Shown here in pieces: positions 1,881 to 18,711 of a DNA stretch of 24,838 bases. The stretch is from a virus. The notes under the pieces were generated by a model. That model saw nothing but the letters and a program-made list of their open reading frames with translations. It was not told where the DNA came from and did not search any database. Each line of letters opens with the position of its first letter. Position 1 is the stretch's first letter. A program made the translations under genes and the position numbers. Where the stretch lies: IMG/VR virus record IMGVR_UViG_3300047554_000121, positions 1 through 24,838 of that record. One strand, 5' to 3'.

Positions 1881-2081
1881 TTATTTCTTCTTGCCGCTCT
1901 TCATGTTAGCGCACCAGTGATACATCTTAGCCTTTTCACCGCTGGCATTTTTAGCACGTTTGCGCAGGTCTGTTACACTGCCATTACAGCTAGCACCTGA
2001 GCGTTTTACACGCCCTGGGCGACTTTTGCCTTTGCGTTTTCCGTCTGCAAAGTTCTCGTTTATAATGTCAGAAATTCTCAT
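1881..2081 (-). CDS. 66-residue basic Cys-containing protein with capsid-targeting-like N-terminus
   Basis: Residues 1-9 are MRISDIINE, matching the hydrophobic-x-E end of a gp21-cleaved capsid-targeting peptide. The remainder is a strongly basic module with two cysteines: RPGRVKRSGASCNGSV, then LRKRAKNASGEKAKMYHWC and a KKK tail. I recall this module as a recurring one in marine T4-like phage proteins, often fused to other domains. Its charge suggests DNA binding, and the C/HxC residues could bind metal, but neither is shown. The start overlaps the stop of the GH19 gene by four bases (ATGA), so expression is coupled to it. Confidence 0.8.
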   Translation of the reverse strand: MRISDIINENFADGKRKGKSRPGRVKRSGASCNGSVTDLRKRAKNASGEKAKMYHWCANMKSGKKK

Positions 2082-2881
2082 TTCATAGCTACCATGAATG
2101 CTTGATGTTTTTCTTTTCTTTGATCTAGATGTTTCATGCCAGGGTTAATGGGCTTTGTTACATCTTTGGTATTTTTGAAATTGTCAACTTTATCACGAAC
2201 TCTTTCTTTCCAATACCACACTGCTACTTTGGCGGCTATCTCTGGTTTTTCTAAAAGTTCGGGTTTGTTAACTAGATCAATCCCTAGAGCATCGCTGGCT
2301 TTTTTATAGTTGTATTTTCCTGTGAGCTGTATATAACCACGACCTTTATATTTGGCACCATCGCCGGGCTTGGTGTTTCCTAACGCTTTTGCTTTCTTGG
2401 GAGCGAATTTTATATCATATTTTTTAAAATCTAACACGCCACCTATTTCTTTCATATGTTTAAAATCCATAGTTTCGTGAGCGCATTGTGCTAGGAATGC
2501 AGCAAGTTCGTTTCCCTTGATACCAGCTTTTTCAGCAGCTTTTTTAAGATATACTTCGTGCGGGTTTCCAGTAACGGATTTTGAAATTTCTTTTTTACTT
2601 ACTTGAGATATAGGATCTTTTGCTTTAGGTTTAGCAGCTTCAGCATCACCGGGACTACCAAATGCTAATGCAGTGCCTAGTGCTCCAGCAGCGGCCCAAT
2701 CTTTCCAACCTTCTTGTTCAATGCTTTCACCGGCTCCGCCGCCATCACCACCTGCGCCGCCCCCGTCTCCGCTGTAGCCAGTAGCATAACCGTAACCACC
2801 GTAAGGTCCTGGACCGTAAGCAGCCCAGCGAGGCTTTTTACGCTTACGCTTTTTTTCAGTTACAAACTCATGTGCTCTCAT
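2078..2881 (-). CDS. GH19-like muramidase/chitinase-type enzyme with capsid-targeting-like N-terminus
   Basis: A 267-residue protein. Residues 1-9 (MRAHEFVTE) closely resemble the T4 internal-protein signal MKTYQEFIAE and end at a gp21-type site. A basic patch (KKRKRKK) and a Gly/Tyr-rich linker (about 20-55) follow, then a hydrophobic stretch (about 61-83, AAAGALGTALAFG...AEAA). The catalytic domain spans about 106-265 and has the GH19 hallmarks: AQCAHET with the likely catalytic Glu136, and YKGRGYIQLTGKYNY (178-192). GH19 members in phages cut peptidoglycan. A second GH19 protein in the lysis cassette (13022-13651) is shorter and lacks the N-terminal extension, so this copy more likely travels in the virion than acts in lysis. 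No Shine-Dalgarno is seen; its ATG overlaps the stop of a 24-residue ORF by ATGA. Confidence 0.85.
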   Translation of the reverse strand: MRAHEFVTEKKRKRKKPRWAAYGPGPYGGYGYATGYSGDGGGAGGDGGGAGESIEQEGWKDWAAAGALGTALAFGSPGDAEAAKPKAKDPISQVSKKEISKSVTGNPHEVYLKKAAEKAGIKGNELAAFLAQCAHETMDFKHMKEIGGVLDFKKYDIKFAPKKAKALGNTKPGDGAKYKGRGYIQLTGKYNYKKASDALGIDLVNKPELLEKPEIAAKVAVWYWKERVRDKVDNFKNTKDVTKPINPGMKHLDQRKEKHQAFMVAMK

Positions 2882-3164: not shown

Positions 3165-3760
3165 TATGCTGTAGGTGCTTCGCCGGTGATATGCACAGTC
3201 CACTTCTTACCAGTGGCGTCGGATTTCTTCTGCGCCCAATCTTGTAATTGACGATAATGTTGTTTTTCTTTAAAGTCATCGGCATAGGTTCCACGACCTT
3301 GGAATACTTTCCATTTCTTACCGTTGATGTAGATAGCAAAGTTGTTTGGCGGTTCTGTGTTACCCTCGTCCCAATCGTCGGCTCTGTTTCTACGGCCAGA
3401 CCAACCGGGGCTAAAACTTGTGCCGCCTCCGAAGTATCCTGCTTCGTCCATATTTGTTCCTTCACTAGTATCCATCCGATCCCAAGCACGGTTAGCTGTT
3501 TGTTGATTCTTTTTAGCAGCCTTAGCATCGCGTTTGTCGTCTGCTTTGATCATACGATCCACAGCACGTTTCTGCACCTTGGTCAACATCTTTTGACCTT
3601 TAGCAGTATCACCGTATTCCTCTACTTTGCCTTTGTGCTTTTCGTATCCTTGTTTCTGTTCTTTCTTCTTATCTCGATGTGCGCCAGCACCTGATGTCTG
3701 TTGTTGACGAACTACAGGATTGCGAGGCTTACTTGCGGGTATAAATTCTTTTGCTTTCAT
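3164..3760 (-). CDS. 198-residue modular virion-associated protein
   Basis: The N-terminus MKAKEFIPASKPRNPVV resembles the capsid-targeting start (compare MRAHEFVTE of the GH19 gene) but has no Glu at the expected cut. A basic, glutamine-rich region follows (SGAGAHRDKKKEQKQGYEKHKGKVEEYGD), which I recall as an exchangeable module in marine T4-like phages. Residues 60-100 are lysine-rich and helical, residues 105-130 are Gly/Ser-rich, and the C-terminal 65 residues are a compact module (FAIYINGKKWKVFQGRGTYA...WTVHITGE) that also recurs in such phages. No enzyme motif. It starts within an ATGA overlap with the nucleotidyltransferase gene and ends in a TAATG overlap. Confidence 0.8.
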   Translation of the reverse strand: MKAKEFIPASKPRNPVVRQQQTSGAGAHRDKKKEQKQGYEKHKGKVEEYGDTAKGQKMLTKVQKRAVDRMIKADDKRDAKAAKKNQQTANRAWDRMDTSEGTNMDEAGYFGGGTSFSPGWSGRRNRADDWDEGNTEPPNNFAIYINGKKWKVFQGRGTYADDFKEKQHYRQLQDWAQKKSDATGKKWTVHITGEAPTA

Positions 3761-4728
3761 GATGATCTCTTTTGTTTAGGACCTTTACGAGTCTTCCATT
3801 TCTTATCTGTCGAACACCAGTAGCGACCATATCCTTCGTTGATATCATCTAACATAGGATCTATGCCACGACTGCGAATGCCACCTTTTTTACGCACCTT
3901 AGACAATTCTTCAAGAGCATGACGTATTTGTTCTACGTTCATTTTTAATTCGTCAAACTGTTTTGCGATAGTCTGCCATTCCCCAGGACTGGCTTTGTCA
4001 ACACGAGCAGCTATATCTTTAAATTGATTTGCTGCTCTTAGCATTCTATATTTTAATTTCGCAGGGTTACCTCCTGCACCGTAGATCATTGGATCCATGG
4101 GATCTGCAGGATCCATCTCGATAGGAGCCTCTGAAATACTTTCCGAGATCTTCATACCTTTACGAACAGCAGAAAATAATGGTTTGGCTAGCTCGCCTGC
4201 ACCGGTAGCCTCTTTGAAAGCTTCAAAGTCGTTGTTAGCTGCGGCAGCACGAGCACCACTAGCGGAAACACCTGCTACACCTTCGGCACCATCTTCTCTC
4301 TCACCACTGGATACAAAATCTAAAACTTCAAATTTATAATAACCGTGACTCTTACCTTCAACTCCATTATAGGCTTCTAAAAGTTTTTTCATATCTTCTA
4401 AACGATCACTACCTGCTACAAAGGTAGCAGCAGTATATCCTTGATCATGAAGATAGGAAGCAACTTTTACTATAGTGTTCAATCCAGCGTCATCGACAAC
4501 GTTATTAGCATACTCGGGAAACATTTCCTTGATGAACTTAATTTTTGTTCCATAGTCTAAAGGATTCTTTTTAGGATCTTGACTTTGGCTGACAAAAATC
4601 TTCATGTCGCCGCCTTGACTTTTCATAGTGTCTAACACTTGTTTGTGACCAATAGTAGGAGGGTTCATCCTGCCAAAGCAGAACGTTACATGTTTTGTGT
4701 CAGCTTCAAATAACTCGTTGAGTAACAT
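3757..4728 (-). CDS. Nucleotidyltransferase (HxGH superfamily) with capsid-targeting-like N-terminus
   Basis: A 323-residue protein. After MLLNELFE|AD, which resembles the start of T4 Alt (MELITELFDE), a nucleotidylyltransferase domain covers about residues 12-195. It has GRMNPPTIGHKQ (19-30) as the HxGH-type nucleotide-binding motif and VSASGARAAA (154-163) as the ISxTxxR-like C-terminal motif. Members move a nucleotide onto a phosphorylated substrate such as NMN, phosphopantetheine or CTP-using alcohols; the substrate here cannot be told. The C-terminal part has a helical stretch (about 220-300) and a basic tail with YWCSTDKKWKTRKG. If packaged, it would be an enzyme delivered with the DNA, comparable in logic to Alt. 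Coupled at both ends (TAATG, ATGA). Confidence 0.85.
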   Translation of the reverse strand: MLLNELFEADTKHVTFCFGRMNPPTIGHKQVLDTMKSQGGDMKIFVSQSQDPKKNPLDYGTKIKFIKEMFPEYANNVVDDAGLNTIVKVASYLHDQGYTAATFVAGSDRLEDMKKLLEAYNGVEGKSHGYYKFEVLDFVSSGEREDGAEGVAGVSASGARAAAANNDFEAFKEATGAGELAKPLFSAVRKGMKISESISEAPIEMDPADPMDPMIYGAGGNPAKLKYRMLRAANQFKDIAARVDKASPGEWQTIAKQFDELKMNVEQIRHALEELSKVRKKGGIRSRGIDPMLDDINEGYGRYWCSTDKKWKTRKGPKQKRSS

Positions 4729-6198: not shown

Positions 6199-6546
6199 TT
6201 AGTAATTATAACGGACTTTGACGATTGTGCCTTGATCTAATCGATAAGCGGCGCGGATCCATAGGAATCTGCCGGTAAAATTAACAGATTCGTTGGCTAT
6301 AAGTGGTGTGCTGTCCTCAACAGTTACGGTAGTTCCGTAAACATCTACCCAGTCTGATTCTCCTGGCTCTAATTCTAGCGTTCCTTGGATCTTAACAACC
6401 CCTACAAAGGCATCGAATTCATAAACAACAGTATGTAACCCGTCGTTGAATTTATTGTAACCGGCTGCTTTATTTTTAGAACCGTAGGAAAAACCCGAAG
6501 TTATTTCGGAAATATCGGATAGTAATTCTTTGTTTTCAGTGGACAT
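6199..6546 (-). CDS. 115-residue beta-rich protein, possibly virion structural
   Basis: The sequence is rich in alternating hydrophobic residues suggesting a beta-sandwich: LHTVVYEFDAFVGVVKIQGTL, then EPGESDWVDVYGTTVTV, then FTGRFLWIRAAYRL and a C-terminal VKVRYNY. No family is certain. I recall similar small proteins in marine T4-like phages near structural genes. It is separated from the 225-residue gene by three bases and ends just before the late promoter of operon E. An in-frame GATAAATA-like string at 6551-6558 is too close to the ATG to serve it. Confidence 0.75.
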   Translation of the reverse strand: MSTENKELLSDISEITSGFSYGSKNKAAGYNKFNDGLHTVVYEFDAFVGVVKIQGTLELEPGESDWVDVYGTTVTVEDSTPLIANESVNFTGRFLWIRAAYRLDQGTIVKVRYNY

Positions 6547-6549
6547 CTC

Positions 6550-7227
6550 TTATTTATCGGAGATAACGTAATTGTATACGCGGCCTACCACTGATGAATT
6601 TCGCAATTTTAACATCAATAGAGTAGGCTCGTCTTCTACTAAGATATATCGACGATCCCAATTCCAGTCAGTGTGCATGAACCATTCGGTGACTGATTCT
6701 GTAAGTCGTATCCGCGGGACTTGATTTCTCATCCAGTTTATGAACTTCTCTTTTTCTTCTTTATCACCGTTCATTTTATGAGGAAGCAGATATACCCTAA
6801 AGTTATATTTGTTATGAGGTAATTTTTTACCTATAATGACTTGAGGATTGTTTAGTATATCTATATCTGTTCCTGGTTCAAATCTAAGATTAACAAAATC
6901 TTTAAATTTTTCAGAAACTGCTGTGTAAAAATCTTGATCGTTGGTATAGAAATCAATGTTAGAATTTTCTATCCTTTTAGCCCATATACTTTGATCATAC
7001 CCTAAAAGGAAATTAGCTAACTCAGAAATTTGTTCTTTATTATGATATACTTTAGTTTCTAAAGAATGTCGATAGCTAGTTTGTTCGTTACACTTGAGAC
7101 AATAGTTATCAATATCAGTCAAAGGAATATTCCGAAAGATACCGGCTCCTTTGATATCCAAGGAAACTTTATAAGACCATTTATTGTAAAATTTTCTGGT
7201 AGTTTGTTTAGCTTTGAATTGTTTCAT
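6550..7227 (-). CDS. 225-residue protein of unknown function
   Basis: No family recognised. The N-terminus is basic ([20 protein letters not shown]), followed by a possible beta-strand segment (VSLDIKGAGIFRN) and a CLKC pair at about residues 43-46 that could bind metal or be chance. The middle is helical, and the C-terminal half has WMRNQVPRIRL, WFMHTDWNWDRRYILVED and LLMLKLRN, suggesting an alpha/beta fold. Its start lies 20 bases inside the ClpA-like gene, so the two are likely translationally linked. Its place directly after ClpA invites the guess of an adaptor or substrate of that unfoldase, but nothing in the sequence shows it. Confidence 0.8.
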   Translation of the reverse strand: MKQFKAKQTTRKFYNKWSYKVSLDIKGAGIFRNIPLTDIDNYCLKCNEQTSYRHSLETKVYHNKEQISELANFLLGYDQSIWAKRIENSNIDFYTNDQDFYTAVSEKFKDFVNLRFEPGTDIDILNNPQVIIGKKLPHNKYNFRVYLLPHKMNGDKEEKEKFINWMRNQVPRIRLTESVTEWFMHTDWNWDRRYILVEDEPTLLMLKLRNSSVVGRVYNYVISDK

Positions 7228-9544
7228 CGGTTTGTTCTAGAGATTTTTTAGCTTTAATAGCTTTTCTTTCTTCTTTAGTCAACGGCTTTGGCATTTCCGA
7301 AACAGTAAACTGAAGATCATCCTTTTCCGCTGAAACTTTAACCATTCCACCGTTGACTAAATCTCCGAAAAGCACTCTTCGGCTCAGAGGAGTTTTCAAT
7401 TTGTTATCGATTAAACGAGCCAACGGTCTAGCACCCATTTTCTTATCGTAACCTTTTTCTGCCAACCATTTTGCGGCAGAGGAATCTAAACTAATTTCGA
7501 TGCCTTTATCTTTGAGCTGAGAATTGAGCTCACTGACAAATTTCTTAACAATCTGTTCAACAACACTGGAGTCTAGTTTATTGAATTTAATAACACCGTC
7601 GAGTCTATTACGGAATTCGGGAGCAAAGAATTTCTTGATAGCCTTGTCGTCTTCACCTTCACGTTCTAACTCTCCAAAGCCGATGGTGTTACGCTCGTTA
7701 TCGGCTGCGCCTAAGTTTGAAGTCATAATAAGGATAGTGTTACGACCATCAGCGACTTTGCCGTTCGACCCAGTCACAAAGCCGTTATCCATGAATGCCA
7801 GCAAGATGTTGCTAACATCCGGATGTGCTTTTTCAATCTCGTCTAATAGTAGAATACTGTTAGGATGCTCTTGTAGTTTTGTGATCAACATACCGGCGTT
7901 ATCTTCATAGCCGACGTATCCCGGAGGAGCTCCGATCAATCTTGCCACCGAGTGCTTCTCTTGGTATTCGCCCATATCAAAACGGATTAACTGCATACCC
8001 ATCTTGTCTGCAAGTTGTTTAGCAGTTTCTGTTTTACCGCAGCCTGTGGGACCTAAGAACAAGAAGCTACCGATGGGCTTATTAGGACTTTTCATACCTG
8101 CTTGTGCTACAAAGATTTTATCTAGTAAGTTTTCAACAGCTTTATCTTGACCATAGACTACATTTTTCATATTGTTCTCTAAGGTTGAAAGATTTTTGCT
8201 TTCTTTTTGCGCCACTGTCTCTAATGGCATATTGATCATCTTACTAAGTTCGTAGGTTACCTGTTCTAAGTCAACGATTTGTTCTACACCTTCCATAGCT
8301 TCGTCGTCTTTGAGTTTATATCTTGCGCAGGCACAATCTAAGATATCGATAGCCTTATCTGGAAGTTTTTTATCACTCATGTATTTTACAGATAATTTAA
8401 CTGCTTGATCGATAGCAGCATCTGTGATTCTTACATTGTGGTGTTTTTCATAATATTTCTTGACACCTTTAAGGATCTTAACAGTCATTTCTGAACTTGG
8501 TTCGTCGATAGTCACACGCTGGAATCGACGCATTAGGGCACGGTCTTTTTCGAAGTGCTTGCGATATTCTTCCCAAGTAGTCGATGCAATGAGCTTAATC
8601 ACGCCTTTAGTAAGGATAGGCTTTAGCATATTGCTCATATCATTGCTTGACTGGTTAGCAGCACCGGCGCCTTGCATCATGTGTGCTTCGTCAATGAAAA
8701 GAATAATTTTACCTTTTCTTTCCAACGCTGTTAGCACAGCTTTGACTCGTTCTTCGAAGTCACCTCGATACTTACTACCGGCTAGTAATGCTGAGATATC
8801 TAGAGTATAGACCTGATGATCTTGAATGAACTTTGGAACTTTTTTCTCATGGATCTTACGAGCCAGTCCTTCTGCGATAGCAGTCTTACCGACACCCGGA
8901 TCACCAACCATAAGCACGTTGGCTTTATTTCTACGAGCTAATACTAATTGTATTTCTTCGATTTCGTTATCTCGTCCGATGACAGGATCGATCAATCTTT
9001 GTTTTGCTTTTAGACTTAGATTGGTGCAGAATTGATTTAGAATCTTATCTAACTGAGATGTGTTAACTATACGATTCTGCGGTTCTTCGCTTTCTTCTTC
9101 CTCGATTACAATATTTTCTTGGAAGAATTTCACAAATTTTTCTTTGGTTACTCCGCCCTTGGTCAAGAAGTAATAACCGAAACTGTTCTTTTCTGAAAGG
9201 ATGCTGATAATCACATCGGCGACTTCCATGCGTTGTCTTCCACCAAACAACACCTGGGTGAAACAACGATTTAATACACGCTCTACTGAGTTTGTTTTTC
9301 TAGGCTTAACTGCTCCTTGACCTGCACTAACGATATCATTTAGATTATTTTTTAAGAAATGTTCTAAGTTTGTTTTGATAAAATCAGCATCAGCACCAAA
9401 GGTTTTGATCATGTCAAATGATTCTTGCTCACATAAGATACCATAGACAATGTGTTCGATAGTGATGTATTCGTGTCTTAGTTTCTTTGCAGTTTCAACT
9501 GAAAATTCAAAGATCGCTTGTAGTTGAGAGCTGGGTTCAATCAT
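7208..9544 (-). CDS. clpA: ClpA-like double-ring AAA+ unfoldase
   Basis: A 778-residue protein, close to the 758 of E. coli ClpA. Residues 1-145 form the Clp N-domain ([26 protein letters not shown]). The first ATPase ring has Walker A GDPGVGKT (214-221), a KYRG pore loop (258-261) and Walker B ILFIDEAH (281-288). The second has GPTGCGKT (498-505), a GYVG pore loop (542-545), ILLLDEIE (564-571) and sensor-2 GARP (704-707). There is no ClpB middle domain. An IGF tripeptide at 621-623 sits where ClpA has its IGL ClpP-docking loop. No clpP is in the window, so it may use host ClpP. The start overlaps the deformylase stop as TAATG. Confidence 0.95.
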
Positions 9545-10038
9545 TATTTGTTCTTCCTAAGTTTTTTCATAGCTAATTGTAACTTCATCTGACTAACTCT
9601 GTCAACAAAACAAACTCCGTTCAGATGATCTAATTCGTGTTGGAAACACTTGCTGATGTATCCATCTACTTTGATTTCGTGTGTGTTTCCTTTGCTGTCT
9701 TGGTATTCGGCTAAAACCCAAGCAGGTCGTTTAACTTTTAAATAAAGACCGGGATAACTTAAACAACCTTCCTCATCTAATACTAATTCCGAGCTGGCTT
9801 CTTTTATCACAGGATTAAACAATGCGAAAGGACTAGGAAAGCCTTCGATATTGTTACTGCCCATTACAAACACTCTTTTGGTTATTCCTATTTGATTAGC
9901 AGCTAATCCTATGCCTTTGCTTTCGATCATAAAATCGATCATCGACTTTTCTAATACCTCGGCATCCCCGTCGACTCCGAACTCCCACGGTGTGCTAACT
10001 TCAACTAGGCTGTTGTGAGGACCTAATTTAAATTCCAT
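9544..10038 (-). CDS. def: Peptide deformylase
   Basis: A 164-residue protein with all three deformylase motifs: GIGLAANQ (42-49), EGCLS (90-94) with the metal-binding Cys, and HELDH (134-138) with two metal His and the catalytic Glu. It removes the formyl group from the first Met of new proteins. Deformylases occur in many marine phages, where they are usually somewhat shorter and lack the C-terminal helix; here a short basic C-terminus (LAMKKLRKNK) is present. It lies between a DnaJ-like and a ClpA-like gene with overlaps on both sides (11 bases and TAATG), placing it in a protein-maturation and quality-control operon. Confidence 0.96.
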   Translation of the reverse strand: MEFKLGPHNSLVEVSTPWEFGVDGDAEVLEKSMIDFMIESKGIGLAANQIGITKRVFVMGSNNIEGFPSPFALFNPVIKEASSELVLDEEGCLSYPGLYLKVKRPAWVLAEYQDSKGNTHEIKVDGYISKCFQHELDHLNGVCFVDRVSQMKLQLAMKKLRKNK

Positions 10039-10864
10039 CTTTTATGTCCTTTATTTTTGATAGTGTCTCTGCTGATAAATTTCTAGGAACAGTTACTTTT
10101 AATCTTATTAAAAGATTTCCTCGATACTTAGATCTTATATGAGGAAGTCCGTAACCGTTACAGCTTAATACCGTTTCGGGTTGGGTGCCGGGGGGAACTG
10201 TTATATCTAGTTGTTTATTGTCTAAGGTAGTAATCGACAGAGTAGTTCCTAACATAGCATCCCAAACTGAAATATTCTGCTCTATAGTTAAGTCTGTGCC
10301 ATTTCTTCTAAATCTAGTATGAGGGCGAACTACAATGTTGACTATTAAATCTCCAGGACGCAGATTTTTTATAGAATTGTCTCCCATGCCTTCATATCTA
10401 ATATGTTGTCCGTGTTCAACTCCAGGAGGAACAGAAATGCTTATCATCTTTTTAGCACCCCCCGGCATGCCAATTTCGGCATCTATATTCTTTCCGTTTA
10501 ATACATCTTCTAAGGTAATTTCAATGTTAACGTTTAACGTCTTGTTTCTTTGCATTGGTCTTTGACCGAACCCAAATCCAAAGTTTCCAAAGAGATCGTT
10601 TAGATTTTCTGTGCCAAAGTGGAATTCGAAAGGCCCTTGGTTAAAGTTTCCAGGACCTGGCTGTGCAAACGGATCTCCCCCCAAATCGATTATTCTTTTC
10701 TTTTCTGGATCGGAAAGAGCTTCATATGCCTGGCTTATTTCTTTAAATTTTTTCTCGTCACCGCCTCGGTCGGGGTGATGCTTCATAGCTAGGCTACGAT
10801 ACGCTTTTTTAATTTCGGCGTCGCTAGCACCTCGTTTTAATCCTAGTGTAGAGTAATAATCCAT
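10028..10864 (-). CDS. DnaJ/CbpA-like Hsp40 cochaperone
   Basis: A 278-residue protein. The J domain covers residues 1-65, with DYYSTLGLKRGASDAEIKKA and the essential HPD at 30-32, which stimulates Hsp70 (DnaK) ATPase. A Gly/Phe/Pro-rich linker (about 66-105) contains FAQPGPGNFNQGPFEF. Two beta-sandwich substrate-binding domains follow (about 110-270), with VPPGVEHGQHIRYEGMG and VPPGTQPETVL. There is no cysteine-rich zinc domain, so it resembles CbpA more than DnaJ. No dnaK is visible here, so the partner would be host DnaK. The ATG has no Shine-Dalgarno, and the predicted transcription start from the promoter at 10871-10899 falls at the ATG itself, suggesting a leaderless message. Confidence 0.93.
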   Translation of the reverse strand: MDYYSTLGLKRGASDAEIKKAYRSLAMKHHPDRGGDEKKFKEISQAYEALSDPEKKRIIDLGGDPFAQPGPGNFNQGPFEFHFGTENLNDLFGNFGFGFGQRPMQRNKTLNVNIEITLEDVLNGKNIDAEIGMPGGAKKMISISVPPGVEHGQHIRYEGMGDNSIKNLRPGDLIVNIVVRPHTRFRRNGTDLTIEQNISVWDAMLGTTLSITTLDNKQLDITVPPGTQPETVLSCNGYGLPHIRSKYRGNLLIRLKVTVPRNLSAETLSKIKDIKDGI

Positions 10865-10870
10865 AGTATT

Positions 10871-10899
10871 ATTGTATAATAAAAAAAGGACTGTGTCAA
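10871..10899 (-). promoter_or_regulatory. Sigma-70-type promoter built into a terminator (drives the DnaJ-deformylase-ClpA operon)
   Basis: The minus strand has a perfect TTGACA (10899-10894), a 17-base spacer (10893-10877) and TACAAT (10876-10871, one mismatch to TATAAT). The -35 box is the loop of the terminator hairpin, and the right arm plus T-tract form most of the spacer. The expected start is within a base or two of the ATG at 10864. Confidence 0.7.
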
Positions 10900-10910
10900 G
10901 CAGTCCTTTT
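10884..10910 (-). terminator. Rho-independent terminator of late operon C
   Basis: A 10-bp stem AAAAGGACTG/CAGTCCTTTT with a 7-nt loop (CTTGACA on the minus strand) and seven T residues, 28 bases beyond the stop of the exported-peptide gene. It is oriented for minus-strand transcription. Confidence 0.9.
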
Positions 10911-10937: not shown

Positions 10938-11156
10938 TTATTTTTTCTTTTCAGGCACTGCTGTTCCTTCGTGCTTTTTATGAACCTTTACTGTCTTACA
11001 GGTTTGTTTTGGTTTTTTAGTTTTAGGATCCATAACAGGTTTCCCATCTTTCATAACATCTACACAGACCTGTTTTGTCTTTGGAGCTTCATCTCCAGCC
11101 ATTGCAGGCATGGCAAATGCTGCTGTTAAAATTAATGCTAATACTGTTGATTTCAT
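10938..11156 (-). CDS. Small exported dicysteine protein
   Basis: A 72-residue protein with a textbook Sec signal peptide: MKSTVLALILTAAFAMPAMA, predicted cut after AMA at residue 20. The mature 52 residues are very basic (over a quarter Lys) with two cysteines, Cys31 and Cys53, that could form one disulfide in the periplasm. It reads like two related halves, KQVCVDVMKDGKPV and KQTCKTVKVHKK. It is the last gene of the lysis operon, has an AAGGAAAG ribosome site and is followed by a strong terminator. I do not recognise a function. An envelope-modifying or superinfection-blocking role is a guess from location and export. Confidence 0.85.
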   Translation of the reverse strand: MKSTVLALILTAAFAMPAMAGDEAPKTKQVCVDVMKDGKPVMDPKTKKPKQTCKTVKVHKKHEGTAVPEKKK

Positions 11157-13021: not shown

Positions 13022-13651
13022 TTAGGCTACTCCGAAAATATGTAATGCGTGATTATAATGTTTGATACGATCTTCTAGACCAATAGTTCCACCATTGATA
13101 CGCTTGGTTAGTGTAAGGATATCACCTTTGTCTGCCCATTGGTTGAGATTGTTTTGTTCCCAGAAGAAACAGGCTGATTGCACAGCACCTTCGAATGTTT
13201 CGAGATATTCAGAAGCCTCTTCTAATGGAATGTCTAATGAAGCAGCGAAGAATGTATAGTTATCTTTTCCAGTTAACTGGATCAGACCACGACCACAAAA
13301 CTTCCACCCATCTCCACTTTCTTCAGGACCGTTGCCCATGCGGTTAGCATAGACTCTATTAGCGATCATCTGTGGTTTCTTTTCATAGGCTTGAGCTAAA
13401 TCGTCTGTGGGAAAATATTTAGGAAATACCTTGCGTAGACTTGCTGCTTTATAATTTAGATTTTCTTTTAAGAAAACAAAGCCACCGCTTTCGTGGGCGC
13501 ATTGTGCTAAGAAGGCTGCTACACGCTGTGGTGTATTGATTTCGTATTCTGGAAGTATTTCTGAAATAGCATGAAACCATTGATCCACATAAGGATTCTT
13601 TGGAATCATTTCTTTTAGTTGTTCTTTTCTGAAATCAAATGTAAAGCTCAT
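13022..13651 (-). CDS. GH19 endolysin
   Basis: A 209-residue protein that is nearly all GH19 catalytic domain. It has AAFLAQCAHESGGF with the likely catalytic Glu54, LNYKAASLRKVFPKYF, the CGRGLIQLTGKDNY core motif, and a C-terminal LTKRINGGTIGLEDRI. Phage GH19 enzymes cleave the peptidoglycan glycan chain. There is no signal peptide, so export would need a holin. It sits directly before the spanin-like pair, supporting the endolysin role. The second GH19 protein at 2078-2881 shares AQCAHE and GRGxIQLTGKxNY but differs widely outside these motifs, so the two are old paralogs or separate acquisitions. Confidence 0.92.
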   Translation of the reverse strand: MSFTFDFRKEQLKEMIPKNPYVDQWFHAISEILPEYEINTPQRVAAFLAQCAHESGGFVFLKENLNYKAASLRKVFPKYFPTDDLAQAYEKKPQMIANRVYANRMGNGPEESGDGWKFCGRGLIQLTGKDNYTFFAASLDIPLEEASEYLETFEGAVQSACFFWEQNNLNQWADKGDILTLTKRINGGTIGLEDRIKHYNHALHIFGVA

Positions 13652-13653
13652 TA

Positions 13654-14388
13654 TTATATCCTTTGCAATAACATGGCACGTTCGCCATTGGTAAACAATA
13701 ATTTGTCTCCAAACTTACTTATATCATAATCTCCTAAAACTTTTGTAAGCCAAAAGGTTTCAGCAGATGCAGCATCGTCTATGGTAGGCGCACCTTCAAC
13801 GATCGCTTGAGGATCGTTTTCGTTGAGCCAGCGTAGTTGTATTTTTTTATCAAACGGCTTGTGGATAGTAATAACATCTCCGTCTATGGTAAGATCATCC
13901 ATTAGGGTTTTATTAAAAAACTTTTTAACAGATTCGGTCCTAATCTTGTTCATCAATCCGTCATAATCACCGGGAGTCATTGGCACTACTTGCTTAATAA
14001 TATCTTCTGAGAGATCGTGTTCGGAGTTTTCTTTGTGATACTTGAATTTAAAATCTTCGATGCCTGTTAATTTTTTTACACCGTATATTAGATCTTTTAT
14101 CTGTTCTAATAGCTTAGGAGTTCTTGATAATTCAACGAACACAGCATATTCGCCGTTGGTGTTTTCTCCTGAACTAACATCTGCATCTAAAACAAATGGA
14201 TATCCTTTCTCGATAAATTCCATTAGGTCTTTAGCTGGGCTGCGATCTTTGACTTGAAAACTTAAAACGCAGACATCGCGGTCCTCTCCCATCTTGGATC
14301 TAAATGTGTCGATCTCGATTTTCTTATGGACCAATTCAACGAGATCCATTGATCTCAGTCCTTCATTAAGCTGCTGGTTGTTCTGCAT
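13654..14388 (-). CDS. 244-residue protein, possibly virion-associated
   Basis: The protein begins MQNNQQLNEGLRSMDLVEL. The LNE|G near residue 9 fits the gp21 cleavage pattern, and I recall the NEGLRS opening from a family common in marine T4-like phages. Residues 15-120 look alpha/beta (VCVLSFQVKDRSPAKDLMEF, EYAVFVELSRTP); the rest includes LSEDIIKQVVPMTPGDYDGL and DDLTIDGDVITIHK. No catalytic motif is evident. A start at 14349 is possible, but it would remove the conserved opening. The gene overlaps the preceding one by 23 bases and lies three bases before the endolysin gene. Confidence 0.75.
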   Translation of the reverse strand: MQNNQQLNEGLRSMDLVELVHKKIEIDTFRSKMGEDRDVCVLSFQVKDRSPAKDLMEFIEKGYPFVLDADVSSGENTNGEYAVFVELSRTPKLLEQIKDLIYGVKKLTGIEDFKFKYHKENSEHDLSEDIIKQVVPMTPGDYDGLMNKIRTESVKKFFNKTLMDDLTIDGDVITIHKPFDKKIQLRWLNENDPQAIVEGAPTIDDAASAETFWLTKVLGDYDISKFGDKLLFTNGERAMLLQRI

Positions 14389-14899
14389 TTGCCATTTCCT
14401 GTGCTTGTTGATCAGCTGGTTCTATTTCAGCATTTACAGATCCGCTGACATTGATAATATCTTCAACTTTATTTTTGTCTAATTCTGTGTAGCCTCTATT
14501 AATATCTGTCATTAATTTTTTAGGCATAGCGATTTTAACCATCCAAACTGGAACTAGATCTATTTTTCCTTTTTTCGTTCCTGGACGGATATCTTCTGGA
14601 GATTTAATCTTTCTTACTTTAGATAATTTTGCTTCGGCGACCTGAACCTTACAACCGTAATCGATCAATCTAAGTCCGCCCTTAGGCTCAGGCATTTTGT
14701 CCTGAGGCCACATAAAAGTGCATTCTACAAAGTAGCGACTTTCTTTAGGGCCTTCAACTAGTTCACCGTCGATCCAGTTATCGAACACGTAAACATCTAG
14801 CTCGTCGATAACACGCTCGAAATCTTTAAGCAAGCTGAGGCTGTTGTTAGAACCATAGATCTGTTCTATATTTTGTATGATATCTTTAATGTCTGCCAT
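14366..14899 (-). CDS. 177-residue protein, first gene of late operon C
   Basis: Start chosen at 14899 (MADIKDIIQNIEQIYG), with GGGAG ten bases upstream. An in-frame ATG at 14911 lies at the predicted transcript start and is unlikely to be used. The sequence is soluble: residues 20-45 are helical, followed by beta-rich RYFVECTFMWPQ, GLRLIDYGCKVQVAEAKL and LVPVWMVKIAMPKK, then an acidic, Ala/Gln-rich C-terminus. No motif or family with known function. I recall homologs in marine T4-like phages beside the 244-residue gene. Expression from the late promoter at 14915-14922 suggests a virion or assembly role. Confidence 0.75.
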   Translation of the reverse strand: MADIKDIIQNIEQIYGSNNSLSLLKDFERVIDELDVYVFDNWIDGELVEGPKESRYFVECTFMWPQDKMPEPKGGLRLIDYGCKVQVAEAKLSKVRKIKSPEDIRPGTKKGKIDLVPVWMVKIAMPKKLMTDINRGYTELDKNKVEDIINVSGSVNAEIEPADQQAQEMANAEQPAA

Positions 14900-14914
14900 A
14901 ACTTCTCCCATTTG

Positions 14915-17231: not shown

Positions 17232-17316
17232 TTTCTTCCTCTGTGTCGTTAGCCCATTCGCCTTCGATTATATAGCAAGGCTCTGGTGGCTCGTGATAAT
17301 AATCATCATCCTGCAT
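17188..17316 (-). CDS. 42-residue acidic ORF between the cytidylyltransferase and gp44
   Basis: A short ORF starting MQDDDYYHEPPEPCYIIEGE. It overlaps the preceding gene by 11 bases and runs 44 bases into the gp44 gene in another frame, so its C-terminal third is probably of little meaning. It fills what would otherwise be a rare 74-base gap in a packed operon. Residues 1-33 are acidic with one Cys. AAAGG lies about six bases upstream. Translation is plausible but not certain. Confidence 0.45.
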   Translation of the reverse strand: MQDDDYYHEPPEPCYIIEGEWANDTEEENERIMGREIPSQNN

Positions 17317-17746
17317 TTTTCAAACCTTTATTGATTTCAGCAGCTATTACACGTTGTCGTAATTCGCTGGTTGAAAAGTTATGTTCACGCTTATTAAAAT
17401 AAAACTCAATGCCGCGATTCATACATTCGTATCTGCCTGTAAAATCTTCGTGTTCGTATTCCTGTCCTAGTATTCTAACATTAATAGGATAAGAAAGCAA
17501 GATGTTTACTAAATCTTCTTCAGTTTCATAAACTAAGATTTCGTCAACATACTTACAGGCTTTTAGTTGTTCGTAACGTTCAAATACACTTTGAACGGGT
17601 TTATTTTTAATTCCTGGACGGTCGATGGTTGGATCTGTTTGTAGACCTACGATCAAATGTTCGCACTGTGTCTTTGCTTCTTTGAGCATCATAATATGAC
17701 CTGCGTGAAACAGATCAAAGGTTGAACAGGTAAATCCAATTTTCAT
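17306..17746 (-). CDS. Cytidylyltransferase-like protein (TagD family)
   Basis: A 146-residue protein starting MKIGFTCSTFDLFHAGH, with HAGH at 14-17 as the nucleotide-binding motif, RYEQLKACKYVDEI (57-70) and STSELR (125-130) as the C-terminal motif. This is the glycerol-3-phosphate cytidylyltransferase pattern: CTP plus a phosphorylated alcohol gives a CDP-linked product. The start at 17746 overlaps the preceding stop by ATGA; a start 11 codons upstream would overlap more and adds nothing conserved. The true substrate is unknown. It is unrelated in detail to the nucleotidyltransferase at 3757-4728, though both belong to the HxGH superfamily. Confidence 0.9.
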   Translation of the reverse strand: MKIGFTCSTFDLFHAGHIMMLKEAKTQCEHLIVGLQTDPTIDRPGIKNKPVQSVFERYEQLKACKYVDEILVYETEEDLVNILLSYPINVRILGQEYEHEDFTGRYECMNRGIEFYFNKREHNFSTSELRQRVIAAEINKGLKNAG

Positions 17747-18108
17747 TTTACAAATCCTGTTAGGTCTGGTGGGGTCCATCCTAGCGGCTTTAGGACTTTG
17801 CCATCTTCACGCTTACGAACTTTGCCGGTTTCTTTGTCGATCTTAGCAAAGTTAGTTCGCATAACTTCCTTCCATCCGCCTTCTCCGTCGAATCCAGCCG
17901 AATGAATAGCACCTGTAGTAACAACGATAAAGTCTAGTAGTGCGTCTAATTGTTCTACACGATCACCGCTGTCTAACGCTACTTGTAATTCTTTCCATTC
18001 CTCTTCCATAAGGTCAAGGTAAAGTTTGTATTGTGTTTCGTTGAGTTCGCCTACGGACTGATCGCAGGCTGTCATGAATTTCGCTTGATCGCGAAACGGG
18101 TTAGTCAT
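17743..18108 (-). CDS. MazG/PRA-PH-like nucleotide pyrophosphohydrolase
   Basis: A 121-residue, all-helical protein with the metal-binding pattern of this superfamily: EEEWKE (35-40) and, one helix on, EQLDALLDF (52-60). The N-terminus FRDQAKFMTACDQ and the C-terminal KIDKETGKVRKREDGKVLKP with GWTPPDL are typical of the phage branch. Members hydrolyse nucleoside triphosphates to monophosphates; substrates proposed for phage MazG include dNTPs and (p)ppGpp, and this sequence does not decide. AAGGAG ribosome site. Its place beside dCMP deaminase and gp44 suggests a nucleotide-pool role. Confidence 0.88.
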   Translation of the reverse strand: MTNPFRDQAKFMTACDQSVGELNETQYKLYLDLMEEEWKELQVALDSGDRVEQLDALLDFIVVTTGAIHSAGFDGEGGWKEVMRTNFAKIDKETGKVRKREDGKVLKPLGWTPPDLTGFVK

Positions 18109-18118
18109 TCGTATCTCC

Positions 18119-18358
18119 TTAAGACTTTAGAATCTTAATGATACGCTTTTGTTCTTGTTCTGTCAACCACTCCTGTTCCAATTCACCAAAGTCTGGAGCA
18201 TTAGATAGAGCGTTGTCGACGATTAGTTTGAGTTGATATAGATCTTTTTTACACTCGAATGATGTGAAGCCATCGTTATACACTGAAGAACATTCGCGAG
18301 CCAGTGAGTGTATCTGACTCGCGATATCTGCTACGTCCCAGTTCTTTTTAAATCCCAT
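18119..18358 (-). CDS. 79-residue protein of unknown function
   Basis: A helical protein opening MGFKKNWDVADIASQIHSLA, with two cysteines (in ARECSSVY and SFECKKD) and an acidic C-terminal half ending LTEQEQKRIIKILKS. No family recognised beyond a memory of similar small proteins beside the cochaperonin gene in marine T4-like phages. Its start overlaps the cochaperonin stop by one base (TAATG), so the two are coupled. Confidence 0.75.
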   Translation of the reverse strand: MGFKKNWDVADIASQIHSLARECSSVYNDGFTSFECKKDLYQLKLIVDNALSNAPDFGELEQEWLTEQEQKRIIKILKS

Positions 18359-18711
18359 TAGATGCTGTTTGGAATAAAATCATCTTCAAACGACGGTGCT
18401 TGATCGCTAACAGCCATGATGCAATTAACATCTACTTTTTGAATTACTTTTTCACCATCACCGTCATCGATCTTAACTCCCCTAGTCCAACGACCGTGTT
18501 CGACTAGGATCCATTGTCCGATCTTAACATCTGTCTGATCGGGTCCGATGGCATATACTTTACCCCAGCGAGGTCTAACACCATGTGATTTACCGTTGTC
18601 GCTTCTAAGGACGATACCGCTGGATGTTTTAATTTCATCGAAGTTCATCTCTGTGATGATTACATCGTCGTGTAGGGCACGTATTTTAATTTGATGTGGT
18701 AATAAATTCAT
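18358..18711 (-). CDS. GroES-like cochaperonin (gp31-type role)
   Basis: A 117-residue protein. The opening IRALHDDVIITEMNF and the SSGIVLRSDNGKS segment match the Cpn10 beta-barrel and mobile loop, followed by WGKVYAIGPDQTDVKIGQWILVEHG, the GxVxAxGPG..VKxGDxVL-like core of GroES. T4 gp31 replaces GroES so that host GroEL can fold the major capsid protein. The C-terminal extension (KVDVNCIMAVSDQAPSFEDDF) is longer than in GroES. It is more GroES-like in sequence than T4 gp31 itself. It adds to the chaperone genes at 7208-10864, although it is in a separate operon. Confidence 0.85.
   Translation of the reverse strand: MNLLPHQIKIRALHDDVIITEMNFDEIKTSSGIVLRSDNGKSHGVRPRWGKVYAIGPDQTDVKIGQWILVEHGRWTRGVKIDDGDGEKVIQKVDVNCIMAVSDQAPSFEDDFIPNSI

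Follow-up and report, generated by a model that had tools for sequence, protein, structure and literature searches.

This analysis concerns a set of overlapping genes on a 24.8-kb virus fragment, part of a jumbo-phage genome (IMG/VR record IMGVR_UViG_3300047554_000121; the whole stretch is called the window, and statements on gene content are limited to it) that encode a DnaJ-like J-domain protein, a peptide deformylase and a ClpA-type unfoldase. A check of the open reading frames (ORFs) placed the three genes on the minus strand (Table 1), overlapping head to tail by 11 nucleotides (nt; DnaJ-like/deformylase) and 1 nt (deformylase/ClpA, at TAATG), in agreement with an earlier interpretation made from the sequence alone (the sequence-only reading). 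A fourth gene, which that reading had not included, overlaps the end of the ClpA gene by 20 nt. The one shared promoter that had been proposed was recovered as a single consensus promoter before the J-domain gene and is conserved in relatives; a second promoter-like match at 9605-9576, inside the deformylase gene, is a candidate only.

Table 1. Positions of the operon and of the other window features discussed in the text (aa, amino acids).
Feature	Position	Strand	Basis or remark
J-domain protein, class II/CbpA-like (DnaJ-like), 278 aa	10028..10864	-	Pfam, PDB match, HPD motif
Peptide deformylase, 164 aa	9544..10038	-	Pfam and NCBIfam above cut-off, metal-site motifs
ClpA-type double-AAA+ unfoldase, 778 aa	7208..9544	-	phrog_4871, Pfam, E. 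coli ClpA as best PDB match
225-aa protein, no known family	6550..7227	-	Overlaps clpA end; same place in close relatives
Sigma70-type promoter TTGACA-17-TACAAT	10871..10899	-	Precedes DnaJ; kept in relatives
Intrinsic terminator of upstream gene (10938-11156)	10884..10910	-	Promoter nested inside
GroES/gp31-like protein, putative co-chaperonin	18358..18711	-	Cpn10 4.5e-7, phrog_931 1.6e-18
Two virion structural genes (head and packaging families), upstream of operon	13654..14911	-	phrog_13138, phrog_12928
115-aa gene downstream of operon	6199..6546	-	PA5oct homologue gp185

The ClpA-type protein was matched to phrog_4871 (6.9e-251), to the Pfam families AAA_2 (1.8e-56), AAA_lid_9, ClpB_D2-small and Clp_N, and over residues 8-748 to E. 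coli ClpA (675 bits). It has the N-domain and two AAA+ modules. Their Walker A/B sets, pore loops and arginine fingers are all present and are conserved across 88 full-length ORFs, a count that takes in overlapping retrievals as well as the control from E. coli. The ClpP-docking tripeptide IGF lies at residues 621-623. In the form I/V/L-G-F it was found in all 92 phage ClpAs linked to a J-domain or deformylase gene (86 with I, 92 with G and 92 with F), among which the flanking positions vary widely. Residues E23, E28 and T81 (E. coli numbering), which we take to be the ClpS contact face of E. coli ClpA, are mostly retained in the phage proteins. The score against the NCBIfam ClpA equivalog TIGR02639 (892 bits) falls below the cut-off of 993, so the window protein is placed in a divergent, ClpA-type phage branch and not in the bacterial equivalog. 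A ClpB-type disaggregase was ruled out, as the window ClpA lacks the M domain; no coiled coil of this kind follows the first AAA+ module (D1), with 29-48 residues from the D1 lid to the second module (D2) in all but one sequence, and the PDB matches to ClpB break into two stretches.

The J-domain protein matched the Pfam families DnaJ_C (1.1e-40) and DnaJ (1.1e-22), and its best PDB match was Thermus DnaJ2 (3.7e-42). The layout comprises a J domain with HPD, a G/F linker and two C-terminal substrate-binding domains. HPD was present in all 77 relatives and the zinc-finger motif CxxCxGxG in none of them; on this domain layout the protein is of class II (CbpA/DnaJ2 type), not a class I bacterial DnaJ. 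The deformylase matched Pep_deformylase (4.2e-43) and exceeded the TIGR00079 cut-off (133.6 bits vs 103.95), and its metal-site motifs, GIGLAANQ, EGCLS and QHELDH, are intact and retained in nearly all of 65 relatives; with all three motifs in place, it classes as a member of the peptide deformylase family.

The promoter before the J-domain gene has its -35 element in the loop and stem of the preceding terminator and its -10 element after the T tract. Because the -10 element ends 6 nt before the ATG, the transcript is predicted to start at the ATG itself, which would make the first cistron leaderless. The promoter was found in 37 of the 45 unique upstream regions of the close clade, mostly at 6 nt from the ATG, and no Shine-Dalgarno sequence occurs within 18 nt in any of the 45; among shuffled upstream sequences the pattern appeared in 40/900. 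At a threshold of 10/12, it was detected at 40/91 J starts vs 20/1548 other ORFs, the best of several possible start codons being used for both groups, and 7 of these 20 ORFs encode a deformylase or ClpA from the same operon. After dereplication at 70%, 9/34 J starts passed (script count), and since their flanking sequences are unrelated, the same placement is seen in clades far apart. Leaderless-type sigma70 promoters were also seen at the deformylase start in four relatives (L168, L179, L182 and L120). Bacterial leaderless messages start mostly through direct 70S binding to the 5' AUG, and a stress-specific role for them is debated (PMC9031893); a stress role in the window phage is speculation.

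Conservation of the gene order was evaluated in close and distant phages. The order J-(deformylase)-ClpA-225aa-115aa was kept almost throughout 80 close viral contigs with 76-94% ClpA identity; a subset of them lacks the deformylase. Since neighbouring genes are also syntenic in these contigs, distant relatives were sought with the ClpAs of Sinorhizobium phage Phosso and Agrobacterium phage Atu_ph07. Of the phage loci, 91/103 at 90% dereplication and 34/43 at 70% have a J-domain gene directly upstream of clpA, whereas the bacterial control (71 clpA loci with enough upstream sequence) gave a J gene in 1/71 and clpS in 45/71. Fourteen of the 18 large-genome records carry a J-domain gene; 13 of these 14 (12 contigs and Pseudomonas phage PA5oct) have exactly one, and by coordinates it always adjoins clpA. 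J-(deformylase)-ClpA has stayed together in Phosso and several other distant clades even though the flanking genes upstream no longer keep their order. In one clade the J proteins are short, at 125-132 residues (J domain and short tail); they keep HPD, and their genes overlap or abut clpA. The grouping exceeds chance, recurring in nearly all 80 close relatives and in distant ones; the sequence-only reading had looked to marine phages for it, and it proved to be conserved without being specifically marine, as the pair occurs in Rhizobiaceae and Pseudomonas jumbo phages. By these comparisons, the J-ClpA helper-motor pair is an old and widely conserved phage unit. Two further observations were made at individual loci: the short-J loci (L126-L130, L155, L169, L178, L183, L208, L215 and L216) encode candidate direct ClpA adaptors, and in L139-L141 the deformylase gene stands immediately before clpA, with no J-domain gene detected there.

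The isolates and known systems define the unit further. Phosso (PV764938) has the full trio in the order DnaJ-deformylase-ClpA, but its ClpA is ~42% identical to that of the window and the flanking genes differ. Atu_ph07 (gp292 ClpA, gp293 DnaJ; PMC6102473) shares with the window the J gene directly upstream of clpA, has PhoH and a clamp loader nearby and its own ClpP and ClpS, and differs in having no deformylase and a J gene without the promoter pattern; its authors record DnaJ together with seven Clp proteins and propose aggregate clearance, describing neither an operon nor its conservation. In PA5oct, DnaJ-ClpA (gp187-gp186) is likewise flanked by virion structural genes, and PhoH and a GroES-like gene lie upstream; this phage has no deformylase, a shorter J protein and no leaderless promoter that could be found. 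In Sinorhizobium phage AP-J-162, the deformylase (gp154) and DnaJ (gp155) are adjacent by number (PMC11242549). Iyer et al. report phage DnaJ and ClpA separately and call DnaJ sporadic (PMC7824862), and in Moraphages ClpA belongs to the core and DnaJ is often present (PMC12619734). No description of a J-deformylase-ClpA operon was found in the literature searched, most subscription papers lying outside that search. The bacterial clpS-clpA locus shares with the phage unit the ClpA fold, the IGL/IGF loop and the ClpS-binding face, but its neighbour is ClpS and not a J protein, and its ClpAs form a separate clade. The DnaK/DnaJ-ClpB bichaperone similarly pairs a J protein with a double-AAA+ motor, from which the window ClpA differs in having the ClpP loop and no M domain.

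In a FastTree phylogeny of 120 ClpAs, the phage proteins formed one clade (support 100), on which J association changed state 5 times and deformylase presence 19 times. What stays constant is the pair of J-domain protein and ClpA, with the deformylase an optional insertion that always takes up one slot. The three-gene operon of the sequence-only reading stands, with the deformylase as an optional rather than a fixed member. As any deformylase gene in the operon is found between J and clpA, the simplest reading is that the trio is ancestral and has lost the deformylase repeatedly, although the tree counts cannot separate gain from loss. Distances on the J-protein and ClpA trees correlated with Mantel values of 0.83 (47 loci) and 0.51 (32 loci, 70% dereplication), and the deformylase correlation was lower (0.74, and 0.29 at 70% dereplication). 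Against the nearest relatives, synonymous sites were near saturation while nonsynonymous divergence (Ka) was 0.06-0.10, which points to strong purifying selection on all three proteins. Inactive enzymes, named in the sequence-only reading as what would speak against it, were not encountered: the known catalytic and partner motifs of the trio are intact, and degraded or inactive enzymes were ruled out at the sequence level by the kept motifs and the low Ka. Recent borrowing from a bacterial clpA locus was likewise ruled out by the single phage clade, the absence of a J neighbour in bacteria and the identity of only ~45% for most of the closest bacterial ClpAs.

The partners of the two core proteins were sought in the same large records. 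ClpP is encoded in 16/18 of them and also in Phosso and Atu_ph07; in the close clade of the window it was found in 2/16 contigs, most of these contigs being fragments. The catalytic triad S-H-D is intact in 17/17 complete phage ClpP copies checked. Two or more ClpP-family genes per phage were seen in G024, G025, G026, Phosso and RaK2, often one near bacterial ClpP and one very divergent. ClpS was not found in the operon and occurs elsewhere in 3/18 large records. DnaK above the family cut-off was present in 1/18, the 280-kb L018 contig, and phage-supplied DnaK was ruled out as a general source; in that contig (11687-14415), ClpS adjoins the full-length DnaK. Given DnaK in 1/18 and ClpP in 16/18 records, the J protein probably uses host DnaK, and ClpA may work with the ClpP of the phage, that of the host or both. 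A pairing with host ClpP had been proposed, but the partner need not be the host's and is probably often the phage's own.

The surroundings of the operon are those of virion genes. The PA5oct homologues of the two structural genes, gp189 and gp188, stand directly before DnaJ-ClpA, and gp189 is noted with electrospray ionisation tandem mass spectrometry (ESI-MS/MS); gp185, the homologue of the 115-aa gene, is annotated as a structural protein and was detected by mass spectrometry. The PA5oct run reads GroES-like, clamp loader, PhoH, two structural genes, DnaJ, ClpA and a structural gene. The GroES-like gene, which the sequence-only reading had counted with the operon as a further proteostasis gene, was confirmed near it and lies outside it; PA5oct has a counterpart in the same genome region. 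It is above the Pfam cut-off for Cpn10, yet matches solved GroES weakly and misses every NCBIfam GroES cut-off, its SSGIVL, a candidate for the hydrophobic mobile loop, aligning with AGGIVL of GroES; phrog_931, which it also matches, is a head-morphogenesis family. Relatives of the gene are present in many jumbo phages, and no annotated DnaJ or ClpA was found within 22 kb around that of Salicola phage SCTP-2. The 225-aa fourth gene is kept directly after clpA in close relatives. Its predicted model is confident (predicted local distance difference test, pLDDT, 91.5), no PDB entry matched it at E 0.001 or below, and its significant matches are uncharacterised phage proteins only, one from Atu_ph07. 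Elsewhere in the window, two separate endolysin/chitinase-like genes of the same family, phrog_181, lie at 2078-2881 (-) and 13022-13651 (-), and nucleotidyltransferase-type genes (cytidyltransferase and adenylyltransferase families) at 3757-4728 (-) and 17306-17779 (-).

The most likely reading, given a probability of roughly 0.55, is that the locus encodes, among virion genes, a J-protein/ClpAP unit by which the phage itself runs the quality control of phage proteins. Host RNA polymerase would start the operon at the sigma70 promoter, producing a message with a putatively leaderless first cistron. The J protein, judging by HPD and its family, would recruit host DnaK and hold or present new or misfolded chains, which ClpA from the same message would unfold and feed through its IGF loops, the presumed docking site, to a ClpP of the phage or of the host. 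The optional deformylase would take the N-formyl groups off phage proteins newly made in large amounts, its presumed substrates. The likely purpose would be to maintain phage and virion proteins in a foldable state during mass production and to remove those that fail. Several points weigh against this reading. ClpP was not found in the 280-, 195-, 187- and 186-kb contigs of the window clade. In RaK2, PBECO4, XaC1 and Vibrio 2.275.O, clpA stands by itself and a J-domain gene is absent from the record. The share of 91/103 is overstated, because all three ClpA queries have a J neighbour. Linkage in close relatives may be plain synteny, so that coupling is argued from the distant relatives only, and the support as a whole is sequence comparison. 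A bolder version, in which a dedicated phage ClpAP has the J protein as a built-in adaptor passing DnaK clients to phage ClpA, and the leaderless message is translated when normal initiation fails under infection stress, is tentative and rather doubtful.

Plain synteny, in which three housekeeping-type genes with no relation to one another would occupy one slot and not act jointly, would suit the order of PhoH, the two head genes and the 115-aa gene, also kept in many relatives, as well as a deformylase that comes and goes and RaK2-like phages that manage with clpA alone; it is nevertheless held to be unlikely, as the trio or pair stays joined in Phosso and distant clades despite the broken upstream flanks, and the J gene changed form (long or short) yet stayed beside clpA. 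Equally improbable is a virion-assembly pair, in which ClpA would remodel virion intermediates without proteolysis and the J and GroES-like proteins would aid folding. The structural-gene neighbours and the head-morphogenesis match of the GroES-like protein are consistent with it, and separate assembly roles for phage ClpA and DnaJ were suggested by Iyer et al. 2021 (PMC7824862), but a pure remodeller would need neither the docking tripeptide, kept in a variable loop, nor the ClpP found in most large relatives.

The sequence-only reading had gone on to suggest a takeover of host protein quality control with loss of host proteins, for which no supporting evidence was found; care of phage proteins fits equally well or better, because the operon sits between virion structural genes. 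A related attack on the host, in which the J protein and ClpA would divert DnaK and ClpP towards the destruction of host or defence proteins, is no likelier than the two preceding alternatives: the J, ClpA and ClpP-docking parts are intact, a host-type sigma70 promoter would permit early expression, the phage RB43 J protein Rki binds host DnaK and stabilises sigma32 (PMC3486835), and the defence protein bNACHT25 requires DnaJ (PMC12169576), but the operon is placed among virion genes, the pair persists in phages whose hosts range from rhizobia to Pseudomonas, unlike attack factors, which usually turn over, and it has no known target. Rki resembles the window protein as a phage J-domain protein acting on host DnaK; it differs in being described as an orphan gene product that is not a generic cochaperone, and the abstract states no ClpA link (PMC3486835).

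Phage chaperones and Clp proteins have so far been reported singly and called sporadic, whereas the comparisons made here suggest that J-ClpA is one unit kept across distant large phages with its ClpP docking site preserved. The arrangement also suggests that a J protein can act as a ClpA adaptor, a role that, to our knowledge, has not been described in bacteria. Under the quality-control reading, the locus would provide a concrete case, open to testing, of a virus that itself decides between folding and degradation, for which the isolates PA5oct and Atu_ph07 offer test cases.

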